Of a DNA stretch of 64,000 nucleotides, positions 1,379-9,704 are shown one piece after another (position 1 is the stretch's first letter; each line of letters starts with the position of its first letter). Source of the DNA: Candidatus Zixiibacteriota bacterium (GTDB lineage Bacteria; Zixibacteria; MSB-5A5; SM23-73-2). The stretch is taken from the NCBI GenBank assembly GCA_030615745.1, contig JAUWYR010000001.1, positions 35,010 to 99,009 of the forward strand, read 5' to 3'. The position numbers were made by a program, and so were the translations under genes. The notes below the pieces were generated by a model. It worked only from the letters and a program-made list of their open reading frames with translations. It was not told where the DNA came from and searched no databases.

Positions 1379-1540
1379 TTATTTTTTTCTTTTCTTATCA
1401 AAAATATACTTCTTAGGTTCTTTTTCAAACTCCGACTGACATAAAGGACAACAGAGATAGTAGATCTCACCTTGATAAAAAATCTTAGCATAGGCTTTAT
1501 TGGGATTCATTCTCCTTTTACAAACTGGATCATAGTGCAT
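1379..1540 (-). CDS. YHS-domain metal-binding mini-protein (copy 1)
   Basis: This 53-residue protein consists almost wholly of a YHS/TRASH-type domain: it begins MHYDPVCKRRM, has a central YYLCCPLCQSEFEKEP and ends with KKYIFDKKRKK. The DPVC start, the CCPLC centre and the EFEKEPKKY tail are hallmarks of YHS domains, which bind copper or other soft metals and occur in P-type ATPases and metal chaperones. AAAGGAGAAAG precedes the ATG. It lies 45 bases downstream of a paralogous gene (1586-1750) in the same operon as CusA/CusB. Its start is separated from the next gene's ATG by about 190 bases. Confidence 0.8.
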   Translation of the reverse strand: MHYDPVCKRRMNPNKAYAKIFYQGEIYYLCCPLCQSEFEKEPKKYIFDKKRKK

Positions 1541-1585: not shown

Positions 1586-1750
1586 TTAATCTTTTTGTTC
1601 TTTTGGTTTTTTCATATATTTCTCTGGCTCTTTCTCGAATTCAGATTTACACAACGGACAGCAGGCTAAATAATCCTTTCCTTTATATTTCAGAGAAAGG
1701 TAAGCTTTCTCTTTATCAATCTGGGCATTGCAAACTATGCATCTATCCAT
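1586..1750 (-). CDS. YHS-domain metal-binding mini-protein (copy 2)
   Basis: This 54-residue protein has the same architecture as the neighbouring 53-residue YHS protein: MDRCIVCNAQIDKEKAY, then LACCPLCKSEFEKEPEKY and a Lys-rich tail. The two products share the CCPLC-x-SEFEKEP block, so the pair arose by tandem duplication. GGAGGTG lies about 9 bases before the ATG. Predicted small cytoplasmic soft-metal binder or chaperone, given the CusA/CusB neighbours. The binding role is inferred from the domain; no metal specificity can be read from the sequence. Confidence 0.8.
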   Translation of the reverse strand: MDRCIVCNAQIDKEKAYLSLKYKGKDYLACCPLCKSEFEKEPEKYMKKPKEQKD

Positions 1751-1776: not shown

Positions 1777-2115
1777 TCAGAGTGCGGCTTCGCCTTTTTC
1801 TCCAGTGCGGATTCGAATAGCTGTCTCCACCGGGGAGATAAAAATCATGCCATCTCCCTTAGAGCCGGTATAGGAACTACCGCTGATCACCTGCACCAGA
1901 CGGTCAACATCTTTGTCCGCACAGACCACCTCTAACTTAGTTATATCCCAGTATCTTTTGGTGATACTCTCATCGGTGGTAAAATAGTTGGGATCGAATC
2001 CATAGCCCACAGGGTGCACGGTGACCACAGTGATTCCCGGCGCTTTTGCCTCCTCCAATGCCTTTACCGTTCTTTCTAAGACCTCTGTTCGGATATAGGC
2101 TTTTATCTCTTTCAT
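1777..2115 (-). CDS. P-II-like signalling protein of the metal-efflux type
   Basis: This 112-residue protein has the P-II (GlnB/GlnK-like) ferredoxin fold. It starts MKEIKAYIRTEVLERTVKAL (typical beta-1/alpha-1), and has VCADKDVDRLVQVI in the second half and TGSKGDGMIFISPVETAIRI, the C-terminal P-II signature block. The T-loop (residues about 37-60, GYGFDPNYFTTDESITKRYW) differs from GlnB and does not show the usual uridylylation context. This fits the divergent P-II group known to sit beside heavy-metal RND pumps rather than beside amtB. GGAGG lies before the ATG. No amtB or glnA is nearby, so a role in sensing for the efflux operon, not nitrogen control, is inferred. Confidence 0.8.
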   Translation of the reverse strand: MKEIKAYIRTEVLERTVKALEEAKAPGITVVTVHPVGYGFDPNYFTTDESITKRYWDITKLEVVCADKDVDRLVQVISGSSYTGSKGDGMIFISPVETAIRIRTGEKGEAAL

Positions 2116-2241: not shown

Positions 2242-2640
2242 TCAGAAATATTTTTTTTCAATCAATAGTTTTATCTGCTCCAAGCTCTTTCCCTGCACAA
2301 ACCAGTTGAAGGCATCACGGCCCTCGTCATTACATTCTCTTCAGGTGGGAGGACATCTTCCCTTGTAGCAAACATCCAGATACTCTCCACAACAAGGGCA
2401 GGGAATCTCAGATACGATATCTGGAATCTCTTTTAGAAGGAAGCTATATAGTTCTGAGCCATCCGGTGGAAGTGTCAATCGGGAGAGACGTTCCCTCCGG
2501 TTATCAAGACCGTCAGCATTTTGAAAAAGATACAGAGTTAAAATTACGATCGCAAAAACTCCCAGAAGGCTCAATAGGGTAAACATTTTTCGCCTTTTCC
2601 CTTTTTTAAAGCCTTTCTTTTTTTCTTCTTTGAAATTCAT
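2242..2640 (-). CDS. Membrane-anchored Cys-rich protein, candidate selenoprotein (UGA at 2341-2343)
   Basis: Conventional translation gives 99 residues. The same frame continues through the TGA at 2341-2343 for 32 more codons (RECNDEGRDAF... to IEKKYF) before a second TGA at 2242-2244, giving 132 residues. The N-terminus is basic and followed by one membrane segment (residues about 19-40). The outer part has CPCCGEYLDVC, GRCPPT, then U-R-E-C. The continuation resembles the C-terminus of PCYCGC-type zinc/redox proteins, in which CxxC is followed by DE-x-x-DA and GKS-x-x-x-I-x-x-x-I-x-x-KY. The UGA sits exactly at the first Cys of that CxxC. A stem-loop follows (separate entry). UGA is an ordinary stop in neighbouring genes. 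AGGAG lies upstream of the ATG. The alternative is a sequencing error or a mutated Cys codon. Confidence 0.65.
2308..2325 (-). promoter_or_regulatory. Bacterial SECIS-like stem-loop after UGA
   Basis: Reading the minus strand, 15 bases after the UGA (2341-2343) there is a stem GAGGGC (2325-2320), a six-base loop CGUGAU (2319-2314) and GCCUUC (2313-2308), six pairs including one G-U. The apical loop has G at its second position followed by U. The loop begins about 22 bases after the UGA, within the 16-37 base distance known for bacterial SECIS elements such as fdhF. Its function is inferred; selA, selB, selC and selD are not in this window. Confidence 0.5.
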
Positions 2641-2748: not shown

Positions 2749-3336
2749 CTATTTACCTTCCATTTCCTTCATATGCATTGCGGGCTCGGATTCGCCACCA
2801 GCTTCTTCGATGAATTTCCCGTTCTGCGTCATCCCGGTCATTTCTCCACACTTATACATCTTGGAGCCGTAGTAGGGGTTGCCTATCTGATCATTTTCCT
2901 GTAGCCAGCTTTCTTTTATCATGGAGCAGTGAAAACTGTAAGCTTTGCCTGAAAAACCGAACCATTTGACATAATCTATCGTAGCCTGTGAAAGGGAAGC
3001 AAATCCTTTACGCGCCTCTTCCAGATTACCAGCTTTCAAATTAGATGAGCTGGTTTGAATCCGCTCTAAAGCTTTAATCAGGTTTCCCAGCTGGACTGAC
3101 ATCTCCTGAGCATGGGTGCTCACCTGGTCGACTTTATCCTGGGCTAAAAGCTCCCGAATGGCAAAATAGTGTTTGAAAATTTCAGCCATCTCATCTGATG
3201 TGGTGACTTCTTCTTTTGCCGAAGCTTCCAAAGGCTTTTCCTCAGATTTCTGATCTGCCAAAACGGGACTTGAAAAAATTCCCAAAATGAATAAACCCAA
3301 GGTTAAAATGACGGTTAATTTAATCTGTTTTTTCAT
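2749..3336 (-). CDS. DUF3347-type secreted copper-associated protein
   Basis: This 195-residue protein has a signal peptide (MKKQIKLTVILTLGLFILGI, cleaved near VLADQ). It continues with a helical DUF3347-like domain: residues 45-120 are amphipathic helices (YFAIRELLAQDKVDQVSTHAQEMSVQL), followed by YSFHCSMIKESWLQ and NPYYGSKMYKCGEMTG. The H-C-x-M and GSKMYKCG elements are characteristic of DUF3347 domains, which occur alone or fused to CusB adaptors and are thought to bind Cu or Ag in the periplasm. It is the gene after cusA in the operon. The tail is Met/Glu-rich (MHMKEMEGK), a plausible extra Cu(I) site. Metal binding is inferred. Confidence 0.8.
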   Translation of the reverse strand: MKKQIKLTVILTLGLFILGIFSSPVLADQKSEEKPLEASAKEEVTTSDEMAEIFKHYFAIRELLAQDKVDQVSTHAQEMSVQLGNLIKALERIQTSSSNLKAGNLEEARKGFASLSQATIDYVKWFGFSGKAYSFHCSMIKESWLQENDQIGNPYYGSKMYKCGEMTGMTQNGKFIEEAGGESEPAMHMKEMEGK

Positions 3337-3440: not shown

Positions 3441-6400
3441 TTAATCAGATTTAGTATCTTCTTTTTCTGTCTCCTCTTTTAAACTCCAGCCCTTGACAAT
3501 TGCATATATGGCTGGGATTATTATCAAAGTCAGGACAGTGGAGCTAATTAGTCCCCCTACCATGGGAGAGGCCATTCGCTTCATCACCTGTGAGCCGGTG
3601 CCATGTCCGATCATTAAAGGAAGAAGACCGATCATGGTGGTAACCACAGTCATAAGCTTTGGTCTAACCCTTTCCACCGCTCCCTCGATTATGGCTGAAT
3701 GTAAATTAGATAGGGTATTAAGTTTTCCTTGTCGCTTAAAACGATGATAAGCTTCTTCCAAATATACCAACATCACCACACCCGTCTCGGCTGCCAGTCC
3801 ACCCAGAGCGATAAAACCCACATACACAGCTACACTGGTATTGAACCCCAAAAAATACAACAACCACACTCCACCCACCAGAGAAAAAGGTAAGGAAAGC
3901 ATAACTGTCAGGCTGTTGGTCATATTTTTGAAATGGAAGAACAAAAGTAAAAAGATGATGATGATAGTAATAGGAATAACAATTCTGAAACGCTTAGCAG
4001 CTGCCTGCATATATTCGTATTGTCCACTCCAGATGATATTATAGCCGGCTGGGATGTCTATCTCTTGGGCTACCACCTGCTGAGCTCTTTTGACATAAGT
4101 TCCCACATCGATTCCCTTAATATCAACATAAACCCAGGCAGTTCGCCGGGCGTTTTCTGATTTGATAGCAGGTGGTCCCTTTTTTATCTCGATATCAGCT
4201 ACCTGAGTGATGGGGATTTGTGCTCCGGTTAGCGTGGGTATTAAGATCCTTTTTAAGCTGTTGAGGTCGTCGCGCAGTTCTCGAGGGTAGCGAACGTTAA
4301 CCGGGTAGCGTTCCAACCCCTCAATGGTATAGGTCACATTCATACCCCCAACCGCAGACATGATCACATCCTGAACATCCCCTACCGTCAGTCCATACCT
4401 CGCTGCCTCCTCCCTTTTGATCTTATAATCCAAATAATTGCCGCCCACTACTCTTTCAGAGTAAACAGAAAGTGTCCCTGGGACTTTTCTCACTACGGCT
4501 TCTATTCGTTCCCCTATGGCGGATAGGGTGTCAAGGTTTGCGCCCATTATCTTGATTCCCACAGGGGTCTTGATCCCAGTGGAAAGCATGTCAATCCTGG
4601 TTTTAATAGGCATAGTCCAGGCATTGGTTAGTCCCGGAAACTGTATAGCCTTATCCAGCTCATCCACCAATTTTTCTGGAGTCATCCCGGGACGCCACTC
4701 TTCCTCTGGCTTTAACATTATGGTAGTTTCAATCATGGTCAAAGGAGCTGGGTCGGTTGCAGTCTCTGCTCTTCCGATCTTGCCGAAAACAGTTTTTACC
4801 TCAGGAAATGAAGCAATGATTTTATCCGTCTGTTGGAGGAGTTCCTTTGCTTTGGTGATTGATATTCCGGGAAAAGTCGTAGGCATATAAAGTAAATCGC
4901 CCTCATAAAGTGGAGGCATGAATTCAGAGCCCAACTTGGAAGCGGGATAGAAGGTTATGCCTAAAATGATTATAGCCGCTAAAATGGTTAGCCACTTGAA
5001 ACGTAGCACCAATTTGATGAAGGGCATATAAAGGGCTATGAAAAAACGGGAGATGGGATTTTTCTTCTCCGGCAGGATTTTCCCCTTTATCACCACCACC
5101 ATCAGAGCAGGAATTACGGTGATGGCAAGCAGAGCTGCGGAAGCCATAGCAAAGGTCTTAGTATAAGCCAGCGGCTTGAACAGCCTTCCAGACTGCTCCC
5201 CTAAGGCAAAGACCGGGAAGAAGGAGACGGTTATAATTAAAAGTGCATAAAAAAGGGCTGGACCCACCTCTTTGGCCGCATCCATTATAATTTGCCAGTG
5301 CTCCTTTTTCCCCTTATCCCGTTCCAAATGTTTATGAGCATTTTCCACCATCACCACTGAAGCATCCACCATCACTCCTATGGCAATGGCAATTCCTCCC
5401 AAGGACATGATGTTGGCATTTATTTTCAGATAGTTCATGACGATGAAAGACATCAAGACCCCGGCTGGTAGGGTGAACATAGCTACTAAAGCGCTTCGGG
5501 CATGTAATAAGAAAATCATACAGATCAAGGCTACCACGAGGATCTCCTCGATCAGCTTTCCTTTCAAGTTGTTTATAGCCCGATATATGAGCCCGGAACG
5601 GTCATAAACCGGTTTGATCTTCACCCCAGGAGGCAAACCTGGTTTCAGTTCGTCTAACTTCTTTTTAACGTTTTTGATCACCTCTAAGGCGTTTTCGCCA
5701 AAGCGCATCACAATTATTCCCCCCACCACCTCCCCTAAGCCATCCTTTTCCGCAATTCCTCGACGAAGCTCAGGACCAATTTTGATCTGAGCAACGTTTC
5801 TTAATAGAATTGGGGTCCCGTCCTGGTCTATTCCCAAAGGAACATTTTTTAAATCCTCAATGGATTGAATATAGCCCAATCCTCTCACCATGAATTCGGC
5901 CTCGGCCATCTCTATCAAACGGCCGCCCACATCGCTGTTAGACCTCTTTATAGCCATCTTCACTTTGGAAAGTGGAATGTTATATGCTAAAAGCTTGTTC
6001 GGATCAACCTCCACCTGGTATTGTTTAACATATCCCCCTACCGAGGCGACCTCAGAAACACCTGGAACAGAGGTTAGCTCGTATTTTAAATACCAGTCCT
6101 GAATGCTGCGCAGATCAGAAAGATCCAGATTCCCGCTTTCATCCTCCACCGTGTATTCATACACCCACCCCACCCCGGTAGCATCGGGTCCTAGCTGAGG
6201 AGTTACCCCTGGGGGCAGACGCCCAGAGATAAAGCTTAAATACTCCAAGACCCGAGAGCGAGCCCAATAAAGATCGGTGCCATCCTCAAAGATGATATAG
6301 ACAAATGAGAAACCAAAGAAGGAGTATCCTCTGACTACCTTGGCATAGGGAACAGAAAGCATAGCGGTGGTCAGAGGATAGGTAACTTGATCCTCCACCA

Positions 6401-6578
6401 CCTGAGGAGCTTGACCCGGGTATTCGGTATAAATTATCACCTGCACATCCGAAAGGTCAGGGATGGCGTCTAAAGCGATGTTTTGGATTGCATACGCTCC
6501 TCCCAGAAAAACGAATATCGCTACAAGGAAGATGATATACTTATTCCTGATCGAATATTCTATGACCTTTTCAACCAT
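3441..6578 (-). CDS. cusA: CusA/CzcA-family heavy-metal RND efflux pump
   Basis: This 1045-residue inner-membrane RND transporter has the usual size for the family and the duplicated layout of one TM helix, a large periplasmic loop and six TM helices. The N-terminus VIEYSIRNKYIIFLVAIFVF is typical. The TM4 region at about 393-412 reads GGIAIAIGVMVDASVVMVEN with a single Asp, matching CusA-type monovalent Cu/Ag pumps better than divalent CzcA pumps, whose segment carries extra acidic residues. Predicted to export Cu(I)/Ag(I) by proton antiport through CusB and the TolC-like channel. The ATG lies 3 bases after the cusB stop and AAGGAG lies within the end of cusB, so translation is coupled. Metal specificity is inferred. 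Confidence 0.95.
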   Translation of the reverse strand: MVEKVIEYSIRNKYIIFLVAIFVFLGGAYAIQNIALDAIPDLSDVQVIIYTEYPGQAPQVVEDQVTYPLTTAMLSVPYAKVVRGYSFFGFSFVYIIFEDGTDLYWARSRVLEYLSFISGRLPPGVTPQLGPDATGVGWVYEYTVEDESGNLDLSDLRSIQDWYLKYELTSVPGVSEVASVGGYVKQYQVEVDPNKLLAYNIPLSKVKMAIKRSNSDVGGRLIEMAEAEFMVRGLGYIQSIEDLKNVPLGIDQDGTPILLRNVAQIKIGPELRRGIAEKDGLGEVVGGIIVMRFGENALEVIKNVKKKLDELKPGLPPGVKIKPVYDRSGLIYRAINNLKGKLIEEILVVALICMIFLLHARSALVAMFTLPAGVLMSFIVMNYLKINANIMSLGGIAIAIGVMVDASVVMVENAHKHLERDKGKKEHWQIIMDAAKEVGPALFYALLIITVSFFPVFALGEQSGRLFKPLAYTKTFAMASAALLAITVIPALMVVVIKGKILPEKKNPISRFFIALYMPFIKLVLRFKWLTILAAIIILGITFYPASKLGSEFMPPLYEGDLLYMPTTFPGISITKAKELLQQTDKIIASFPEVKTVFGKIGRAETATDPAPLTMIETTIMLKPEEEWRPGMTPEKLVDELDKAIQFPGLTNAWTMPIKTRIDMLSTGIKTPVGIKIMGANLDTLSAIGERIEAVVRKVPGTLSVYSERVVGGNYLDYKIKREEAARYGLTVGDVQDVIMSAVGGMNVTYTIEGLERYPVNVRYPRELRDDLNSLKRILIPTLTGAQIPITQVADIEIKKGPPAIKSENARRTAWVYVDIKGIDVGTYVKRAQQVVAQEIDIPAGYNIIWSGQYEYMQAAAKRFRIVIPITIIIIFLLLFFHFKNMTNSLTVMLSLPFSLVGGVWLLYFLGFNTSVAVYVGFIALGGLAAETGVVMLVYLEEAYHRFKRQGKLNTLSNLHSAIIEGAVERVRPKLMTVVTTMIGLLPLMIGHGTGSQVMKRMASPMVGGLISSTVLTLIIIPAIYAIVKGWSLKEETEKEDTKSD

Positions 6579-6580
6579 AG

Positions 6581-8335
6581 CTATTTGCTCCTTTTTTTAG
6601 ATTCCAGTTTTATTAACTCCATGCCGCACTCCGGGCATTTCCCTGGCACATTAGAAAGGATATGATGATGCTCCTCCATGGGACAGGTATAAACATCTCT
6701 GTCCGTTTCGGTGATTGGCACCAAATCCATCCCGCATTCAGGACATTTACCCGGTCCTACCTGAAGTATATGACTATGCTCATCCATTGGGCAGGTGTAG
6801 ACCTCCTCGGCATACTCTGCCTTTTTTTCAGGGGTAAGATTCAGATTCTTGACCTCAAGCTGTGCACCCTCATGAACATGCTCCTCTTCTTTTTTTATAA
6901 CCGGTATCCTTTCCACTTCAACCTCTTTTGAAGTGTCCATCTTAGCCTTAATCATCTTTTGAATTGCTTCTTGGGTCTTGCTTTCAGAATCGAGCATGAA
7001 CTGAGCGGAGACTACCACCACTTCATTCGGAAGAAGTCCTTCTTTAACCGCCAGGACCCCTCCCTCACCACTAACTCCGGTTATGATTTCTCTGGGTGTA
7101 TATTTCCCCTCACCTATATCCACAAAAACTATCTCCCTTTTACCTGACCGAATCACCGCCTCCTCGGGAATCAGAGTTCTTTCCCCGGAGAGCTCAGATT
7201 CAATTACCACATTAGTATACATATCCGGCTTGAGTTTGAATCCGGGATTGGAAAACTCCAGGCGCACCTTTACATCACGTGTCTTTTGACTTAAATAAGG
7301 ATAGATGTAGGTTAATTTTCCCTCGAAGGTCTCACCTGGAACATAGGGCAAAGTTATGGTGGCTTTCTGTCCCAGCTTTATATAGGGGAGCTCATATTCA
7401 TAGATCGTGGCTAACACCCAAACGGTTGAAAGATCAGCTATCCGGAAAAGATCTGATCCTGCTTTAACATAACCTCCTTCGATAGCGTTTTTATGGATCA
7501 CTACCCCTTTTGTTAGTGAATAGATGGTCAAAGTTTTTTTGACCTCCCCGGTTTGTTCCAATCTTCTGATCTGGTCTTCATTGATATCCCAGTATTCTAA
7601 CCGCCTGCGTGAGGAATTCAGAAGTTCTAAGGCACCCTCTCTGGCTTCCTTAAAGGGGCTATCTTTAAGTTCTTGATAGCCCTTCAAAGAGGTTAAATAT
7701 TCTTCCTGAGTGCTGACCAACTCCGGTGAATATAATTCCAGAAGTGGTTGCCCTTTTTCCACCACCTCCCCAGTGGTGTTTACATAAAGTTTCTCGATCC
7801 AACCTGCGATTTTGGTGTTAATGATGTAAAGCTTCTTCTCATCGTAATCGATATGTCCCACAGTTCGGATGGTGCGGGTCAAATTACCGGTTTTAACCGG
7901 TGCAGTTCTGAGACCCATATTTTGAACAGTAACAGGGTCTATAAAGATAGCACCCTCTGCTATCTCATCTTCATAAACAGGTATCAAATCCATTCCCATG
8001 GGAGATTTGCCTGCCTTATCCGAAATATAAGTTGGGTCCATGGGCGCTCGCCAGTATTTGATTTTTCGCTCTCCTTTGGGTTTAGTGGTGCCAGCAGAGG
8101 CACTTTTAATGGGGGTCAACTTCATTCCACAGACAGGACAGTTCCCTGGTCCCTCTTGAATTATCTCTGGATGCATACCACAGGAATAAAGTTGCTTAAC
8201 AGAAGCCTCTCCCATTTGGACCAAATCCTTCGGACCAGAGGATCTTTTTCCCATTAAGAAGCCTAAAGCAACCCCAACGGTCAAAGTTAGAATTGCCACC
8301 AAAATGATTGTAAGCAATTTTGTTTTCTTTTGCAT
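6581..8335 (-). CDS. cusB: CusB-family periplasmic adaptor with four HMBD-type modules
   Basis: This 584-residue membrane-fusion protein has an N-terminal TM/signal anchor (LLTIILVAILTLTVGVALGF). A heavy-metal-binding domain follows at about 49-76 (YSCGMHPE, CPVCGMKLTPI), then a degenerate second one at about 92-123 (YWRAPMDP, SPMGMDLIPVY). Next come the barrel-sandwich hybrid and helical hairpin, and a beta-barrel region typical of CusB. Unusually, the C-terminus has two more intact modules at about 513-541 and 549-577 (YTCPMDEHSH, YTCPMEEHHH, each with CPECGM). The ATG at 8335 is chosen over one 48 bases upstream because GGAGAG precedes it and the signal anchor then starts properly. It links CusA to the outer-membrane channel and delivers metal. 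Confidence 0.92.
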   Translation of the reverse strand: MQKKTKLLTIILVAILTLTVGVALGFLMGKRSSGPKDLVQMGEASVKQLYSCGMHPEIIQEGPGNCPVCGMKLTPIKSASAGTTKPKGERKIKYWRAPMDPTYISDKAGKSPMGMDLIPVYEDEIAEGAIFIDPVTVQNMGLRTAPVKTGNLTRTIRTVGHIDYDEKKLYIINTKIAGWIEKLYVNTTGEVVEKGQPLLELYSPELVSTQEEYLTSLKGYQELKDSPFKEAREGALELLNSSRRRLEYWDINEDQIRRLEQTGEVKKTLTIYSLTKGVVIHKNAIEGGYVKAGSDLFRIADLSTVWVLATIYEYELPYIKLGQKATITLPYVPGETFEGKLTYIYPYLSQKTRDVKVRLEFSNPGFKLKPDMYTNVVIESELSGERTLIPEEAVIRSGKREIVFVDIGEGKYTPREIITGVSGEGGVLAVKEGLLPNEVVVVSAQFMLDSESKTQEAIQKMIKAKMDTSKEVEVERIPVIKKEEEHVHEGAQLEVKNLNLTPEKKAEYAEEVYTCPMDEHSHILQVGPGKCPECGMDLVPITETDRDVYTCPMEEHHHILSNVPGKCPECGMELIKLESKKRSK

Positions 8336-8351
8336 AAAGCTCTCTCCTTTT

Positions 8352-9629
8352 TTATAGTAATGATTTGCCCACCATCTCCTCAAGTCTGGCGATGGTTTTG
8401 AAATAAGAACTCAAAGCCTGATGATGGGCTATCTCATAATTGAAAAGGGTCACCTGATTGTTTAGCAAAGTCAGAAAATCGACTTTATTCACCTGATAGC
8501 CAGACTTGGCGGACTCAAGGGACTGCCGAGCTTGAGGCAGGATAGCGGTCTGGTAAAGTTGGACTTCTTTTTTGAATTTGTTCAAGGAATAAAATAACTT
8601 CGACACCCCAAGCTTCACATAATTTTCGCCACCCTCATATTCTTGACGGGACGATTCTAAATCTAAAGATTTTTCCTGAACCTTTTTTTTCTGTTTAGAC
8701 CAAAAGTAAAGCGGGATATTTATACCCGCAGAAAAAGAGACGAAATCCTTTCCTTTTACTGGATCCATCTTTACCTCATCTCTGATCCGGTAACTGGCTG
8801 ATAAGGTGAAATCGGGCCAATACTCCCGGAGAGCTAAATCATAAGCTGACTGAGATGCACTCACAAAAAACCCTTTTCCCTTTAAATAAGGATTGGTTTC
8901 TAAGGCTAAGCTTTGCAACTTCTCCTCGGAATAAGGGAATTCTTGGAAAGTTAAATCTGAAGCTTTCCCTAATGAATCCTGCGGATTCCGATTGAGCAGA
9001 ATGTTTATCTTGGCCTGAATGATTTTTCTCATCTCCTCTAAGGAAATAAGTTTATCTATCATCTTGGAGACCTCCACTTGAGCTTTCAGAACATCCTGCT
9101 GGATTCCTCTGCCTACCGAATATTTGGTGGAAGCTATGCGAGCAAGATCTTCTATTAGCAATTTGTTCTTCTGGGTAATCTCAATCGATTTCTGCAATAG
9201 GTAAAGTTGATAGTAATTTTGTTTCAGTTCACTCAGGATGAAGTTTTTAGTGGATTTATAGCCTTCCTTTGTTTTTTGGGCTAAACTTCTGGTGGTTTTC
9301 TCGGCAAGCCCCAGCTTTCCCGGGAAGGGGATTTTCTGAGTTAGCATCAACTCCAGTCCGCTCATGGGAGTCTGATCGAAAGACCAGGAATCTATGGGTA
9401 GATTGGAGCCTACCATTTTGAAAAAAGGATCGGGAAGTGATCCAGCCTGAGGCACCTTTGCCTCAAAGGCTTTGTAGCGAAGTTCAGCAGCTTTCAGGTC
9501 CGGATTGGCTCTGAGAGCTTCAGTGATCAGGGAATCTAAGATTAGCTCTTGTGCCAGGCTCGGCTGCGACATTAGTGTGAGAAGGCTCAAACAAATTGCC
9601 AGCCCACACCTAAAAAAAGATAGTCTCAA
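8352..9629 (-). CDS. TolC/CusC-family outer-membrane efflux channel
   Basis: This protein of about 425 residues has an N-terminal signal peptide (CGLAICLSLLTLMSQPSLAQ) and two outer-membrane efflux repeats. Helical coiled-coil stretches include LRYKAFEAKVPQAGSLPDP early, GRGIQQDVLKAQVEVSKMID near the middle, and YQVNKVDFLTLLNNQVTLFNYE near the end; this is the common TolC-like pattern in metal efflux operons. A TTG at 9629 is the best start because AAGGAGG lies 5 bases before it; an upstream ATG at 9677 lacks a ribosome site and would spoil the signal peptide. Completes the tripartite CusCBA pump with the next two genes. Confidence 0.9.
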   Translation of the reverse strand: MRLSFFRCGLAICLSLLTLMSQPSLAQELILDSLITEALRANPDLKAAELRYKAFEAKVPQAGSLPDPFFKMVGSNLPIDSWSFDQTPMSGLELMLTQKIPFPGKLGLAEKTTRSLAQKTKEGYKSTKNFILSELKQNYYQLYLLQKSIEITQKNKLLIEDLARIASTKYSVGRGIQQDVLKAQVEVSKMIDKLISLEEMRKIIQAKINILLNRNPQDSLGKASDLTFQEFPYSEEKLQSLALETNPYLKGKGFFVSASQSAYDLALREYWPDFTLSASYRIRDEVKMDPVKGKDFVSFSAGINIPLYFWSKQKKKVQEKSLDLESSRQEYEGGENYVKLGVSKLFYSLNKFKKEVQLYQTAILPQARQSLESAKSGYQVNKVDFLTLLNNQVTLFNYEIAHHQALSSYFKTIARLEEMVGKSLL

Positions 9630-9704
9630 TTTAACCTCCTTAAGTAAAAGACAAAAACACCCCCAAAGGGGCAACAAAGCATTGCCTCTTAGCTTAAAGA
9701 GGTA

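Follow-up and report, generated by a model that had tools for sequence, protein, structure and literature searches.

The minus-strand gene at positions 2242..2640 of the window, the 64,000-nucleotide stretch of DNA analysed here, is a candidate selenoprotein gene of 132 codons and a terminal TGA, as indicated by its reading frame and family matches. Its in-frame UGA is predicted with high confidence to be decoded as selenocysteine (Sec), and its product to be a divergent relative of the OS_HP4/CYCXC (PCYCGC-like) proteins.

An ATG at 2640 opens a frame of 99 codons that reaches a TGA at 2343..2341, beyond which the same frame contains 32 further sense codons (RECNDEGRDAFNWFVQGKSLEQIKLLIEKKYF) before a second TGA at 2244..2242. 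The predicted read-through product has 132 residues with Sec at position 100, in the context U-R-E-C, and is organized as a Lys/Arg-rich start followed by one hydrophobic helix and a small domain rich in cysteine. The helix is a predicted membrane anchor at approximately residues 19–39 (2524..2586; MFTLLSLLGVFAIVILTLYLF), recognized from the sequence and falling within helix 15–53 of the predicted model, with the topology inferred. The Cys/Sec cluster, delimited by family alignment, spans residues 80–103 (2332..2403) and comprises PCPCC (C81, C83, C84), C91, C96, U100, and C103; C96 is an extra residue outside the six invariant Cys columns of the family. UGA is also an ordinary terminator in the window, as the initial annotation had stated, with five of the 29 non-overlapping open reading frames of at least 200 amino acids ending in TGA. 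Gene calling that treats every TGA as a stop yields a truncated 99-residue protein and loses the UxxC part.

The only NCBIfam model matched by the extended protein is NF041379, 'CYCXC family (seleno)protein' (OS_HP4), with a value of 1.9e-7 across residues 70–131. The score of 31.1–33.2 bits is below the curated cut-off of 90, and none of the family members found in Chloroflexota reaches 90 either, the best scoring 83.7 bits. Neither the window protein nor its aligned core matches PF13798 (PCYCGC; gathering cut-off 25 bits). An independent profile was constructed from 62 family homologues from other phyla, with the window protein left out and no bait sequences included. The full product scores 24–27 bits against this profile (24.4 with the 62 homologues) and the 99-residue form 4.1 bits; the stretch following the UGA scores 18.7–21.4 bits on its own, compared with 9.9 bits for the best of 1,943 scored shuffles of the extension (2,000 made) and no more than 3.3 bits when the window's 238 other stops are read through in the same way. 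At the level of sequence, the post-UGA homology to the PCYCGC/CYCXC family is more than chance, and the coding character first noticed in the 32 codons past the TGA is borne out. When aligned to 19 homologues, the window protein retains each of the six invariant Cys positions, one of them as Sec (C20, C22, C23, C30, C39 (U), and C42 of the aligned core), and has a gap at the column of the family's near-invariant His between the Cys groups. Because it keeps the Cys and Sec positions but misses the NF041379 and PF13798 cut-offs and the His motif, the protein is placed as a divergent relative and not as a formal member of either model.

Homologues were collected by a genome scan followed by family searches in Chloroflexota and Gemmatimonadota (phylum names inferred), which contain the family in 37 of 400 and 106 of 395 genomes, respectively. 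The bait alignment of the genome scan had no use beyond the design of search patterns; every homologue described here was read from genome DNA. The UGA of the window gene (2341..2343), the proposed Sec codon, aligns with the first Cys of the invariant CxxC, and 17 other family genes have a TGA at this first position of the C-terminal [C/U]xxC while 51 have Cys. The proposal that the UGA occupies the first Cys of a conserved CxxC is thus upheld, with Sec and Cys homologues both aligning through the site. Both forms occur within a few kilobases of each other on one Chloroflexi contig (L023), the Cys copy reading HAATCDLC and the UGA copy HAYTUDMC; the Sec and Cys paralogues lie at 1119–1688 and 5818–6309, near genes identified by eye as radical-SAM-like and polyferredoxin-like. 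One Chloroflexi genome (G132; contigs C30 and C27) has three genes of the family, of which two contain an in-frame TGA.

Homologues with TGA or Cys at this site, which were to be looked for in related genomes, occur in other phyla, as counted above; in the window's own phylum the family is present in one of 132 genomes. The other 131 yielded no relative, so there is no close homologue in which the frame could be seen to be conserved. A direct search of plasmids for relatives found nothing. Seven viral contigs (L015–L021) among the apparent relatives were set aside, the match being restricted to IPCPCCGEY-like stretches; the matched proteins are presumably phage terminase proteins. Weak matches in three genomes (G010, G033, and G108) were dropped as chance, their translations being without the family signature. 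The window gene extends a known selenoprotein family to another phylum.

The gene lies in a Cus-type cluster encoded on the minus strand, in agreement with the copper-related setting originally proposed. Upstream are genes for an outer membrane efflux protein (TolC/CusC-like; 8352..9677), a CusB-like membrane fusion protein with heavy-metal-binding domains (6581..8383), a CusA-like RND efflux pump (3441..6578), and, as the immediate neighbour, a DUF3347 protein (2749..3336). Downstream are a P-II-like protein (1777..2115), which may be a metal-related P-II relative rather than a nitrogen regulator, and two small YHS-domain proteins (1586..1750 and 1379..1540); a DUF1428/ABM-like protein is also encoded downstream. 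On the plus strand at 293–750, a small gene overlaps by a few bases with the gene after it, which encodes a ParE-like toxin (PF05016, 39.3 bits), and the two are likely a type II toxin-antitoxin pair. Genome G101, from the same order, encodes the end of CusA and a DUF3347 protein 62% identical to that of the window, followed by a gene that by eye is aldo/keto reductase-like, and no selenoprotein gene at this CusA-DUF3347 locus; the selenoprotein gene is therefore accessory. Domains encoded near the homologues include cupredoxin, COX2 periplasmic, Fer4_5, DsbD_TM, and thioredoxin, a set that fits extracytoplasmic copper or thiol chemistry but includes no fixed partner. The position of a CYCXC relative beside Cus-type efflux genes provides a concrete hypothesis for function.

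The predicted structural model, derived from four sequences (mean pLDDT 77.7, pTM 0.60), has the long N-terminal helix (residues 15–53) and, beyond it, a small helical domain in which the Cys and Sec residues cluster. Given Sec decoding, a tentative possibility, held with less than even confidence, is that the protein does not bind metal but is a thiol reductase like CcmH, whose three-helix bundle bears a redox CxxC. This would accord with the DsbD_TM and thioredoxin domains among the neighbours of the homologues and with the alignment of the model to the N-terminal domain of CcmH (2kw0; Z 4.7, rmsd 3.2, 60 residues), although the match is weak, comes from a model of four sequences, and has a Z of a size common for helical bundles. 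Foldseek gave no match at E 0.001 with the model, and a profile search of solved structures returned only chance-like matches with no CcmH among them. Among natural thiol proteins the CcmH domain alone gives a suggestive match, and as a comparison with a predicted model it is too weak to decide the matter.

The UGA is followed by a bSECIS-like hairpin (2308..2325, minus strand; GAGGGC-CGUGAU-GCCUUC) that starts fifteen nucleotides 3′ of it and has a 6 bp stem and a 6-nt loop, CGUGAU, beginning at +22, such that the loop G lies 23 nt after the UGA. The published bSECIS model sets limits on stem, loop, spacing, and energy (−7.5 kcal/mol or lower; PMC13188914), and the loop, stem, and spacing are within them. 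The sequence CGTGA is present at +22 to +26 in 17 of 18 UGA genes (window included), with CGGGA in the eighteenth, and in none of the 51 Cys genes; the UGA-gene counts are not independent because the other UGA genes are related to one another. The stem of the window gene differs in sequence and its loop is one base longer, so that the gene adds one independent case for the loop but none for the stem register. Covariation of the stem in 16 sequences includes changes on both sides at five of seven pairs, with a score of 0.346 versus 0.145 in shuffles, and no shuffle of 500 reaches this score. Among the 133 stops in the window only one, the proposed Sec TGA, has the loop at the +22 place; CGTGA has a frequency of 1.6e-4 per position, and CGT accounts for only 6.9% of Arg codons.

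The isolated hairpin has an energy of −7.2 kcal/mol, just short of the published −7.5 limit, and a larger 72-nt fold has −16.6, neither value reproducing the exact energy measure of the model. Taken as a whole, the 72 nt that surround the hairpin do not fold better than shuffled sequence, and for five of 71 ordinary stops the hairpin energy is at least as good. Hairpin energy fails to separate the proposed Sec TGA from ordinary stops and is therefore not used as evidence; the SECIS evidence is the loop sequence together with its spacing. A CGUGA loop fixed at +22 offers a simple test for calling Sec in the CYCXC/PCYCGC family.

The source genome (2.28 Mb, 98.55% complete) contains selA, selB, selC, and selD, the four genes whose presence was to be checked. 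A tRNA-Sec gene (selC) with anticodon UCA is located at C32:3204–3297 (66.9 bits), and selD, selA, and selB follow consecutively, directly downstream; the SelA match is 469.7 bits. The selD frame has its own in-frame UGA (SSFGUASKC). In other organisms SelD has been verified to be a selenoprotein (PMC9312934). This UGA is near L001:269 (on C32 of the source genome, G000), and because of it a gene caller would start selD late, at an ATG at L001:299. Given this machinery and the UGA-bearing selD, the organism very probably inserts Sec at the UGA of certain sites, UGA elsewhere terminating, a conclusion drawn from gene content.

It is very improbable that the product is instead a true 99-residue Cys-rich protein ending at the TGA, with the downstream similarity being the remnant of a truncated (pseudogene) Cys form. 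The frame does reach a TGA, and the protein is divergent, with no other member in its phylum; however, a fresh nonsense mutation would not bring the family's CGUGA loop at exactly +22, the TGA sits in precisely the alignment column that holds UGA in other genomes, and the genome has a full Sec system. Still more improbable is a sequencing or assembly error at a real TGC or TGT codon, for although the assembly is in 74 contigs, the SECIS loop of the window gene is absent from every Cys gene and an error would need to coincide with a chance SECIS loop.

The preferred reading is that the gene encodes a selenoprotein, 132 residues long, of OS_HP4/CYCXC (PCYCGC-like) type. The N-terminal helix would anchor the protein in the membrane, with the small helical domain probably outside the cytoplasm and carrying five family-invariant Cys residues and one Sec. 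SelA, SelB, SelC, and SelD would decode the UGA at 2343..2341 as Sec, directed by the putative bSECIS hairpin with its CGUGA loop starting 22 nt past the UGA. The gene position, the Cys content, and the neighbours of the homologues suggest two most likely roles for the UxxC: a redox couple for fast thiol/selenol chemistry, or a soft-metal ligand pair for Cu(I)/Ag(I), serving the upstream Cus-type pump. The two roles appear about equally probable. A more specific proposal, which seems rather unlikely, is that the protein represents a separate compact CYCXC-like branch in which the His motifs have been lost and the protein now serves Cus-type efflux as a dedicated accessory, its Sec being a Cu(I)/Ag(I) ligand or a reductant that keeps a periplasmic site as Cu(I).

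Of the known systems, the N-terminal domain of CcmH resembles the window protein in its helical arrangement, as far as the weak structural match goes, whereas the window protein has more Cys; no cytochrome maturation genes are seen adjoining the selenoprotein gene within the window. Described PCYCGC proteins include a Bacillales lipoprotein (PMC13068155). The window protein shares the C-terminal CxxC...GKSxxxI pattern of PCYCGC proteins, and although it gains no PF13798 match itself, the homologues that link it to the family are PF13798 members (55.6–113.1 bits). The PCYCGC-type relationship that had been suggested from the sequence is upheld.

The protein had also been put forward as a new selenoprotein, and this does not stand: OS_HP4 with a UxxC is tabulated among predicted prokaryotic selenoproteins in one review (PMC9312934), and OS_HP4/CYCXC is tabulated in another with assignment to PF13798 and credit to Zhang & Gladyshev 2007 (PMC13188914), in addition to its NCBIfam entry. 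By sequence comparison the window protein does not found a new family but is a divergent relative of one that was described in 2007. It differs from OS_HP4/CYCXC proteins (NF041379) in being without the GHxS/HA His motifs, in having PCPCC in place of CYCxC, and in its much shorter middle, but it is homologous to them at residues 70–131 and has the same Sec (or Cys) opening the UxxC, the same six invariant Cys columns, and a SECIS loop and spacing as in the other UGA genes found.
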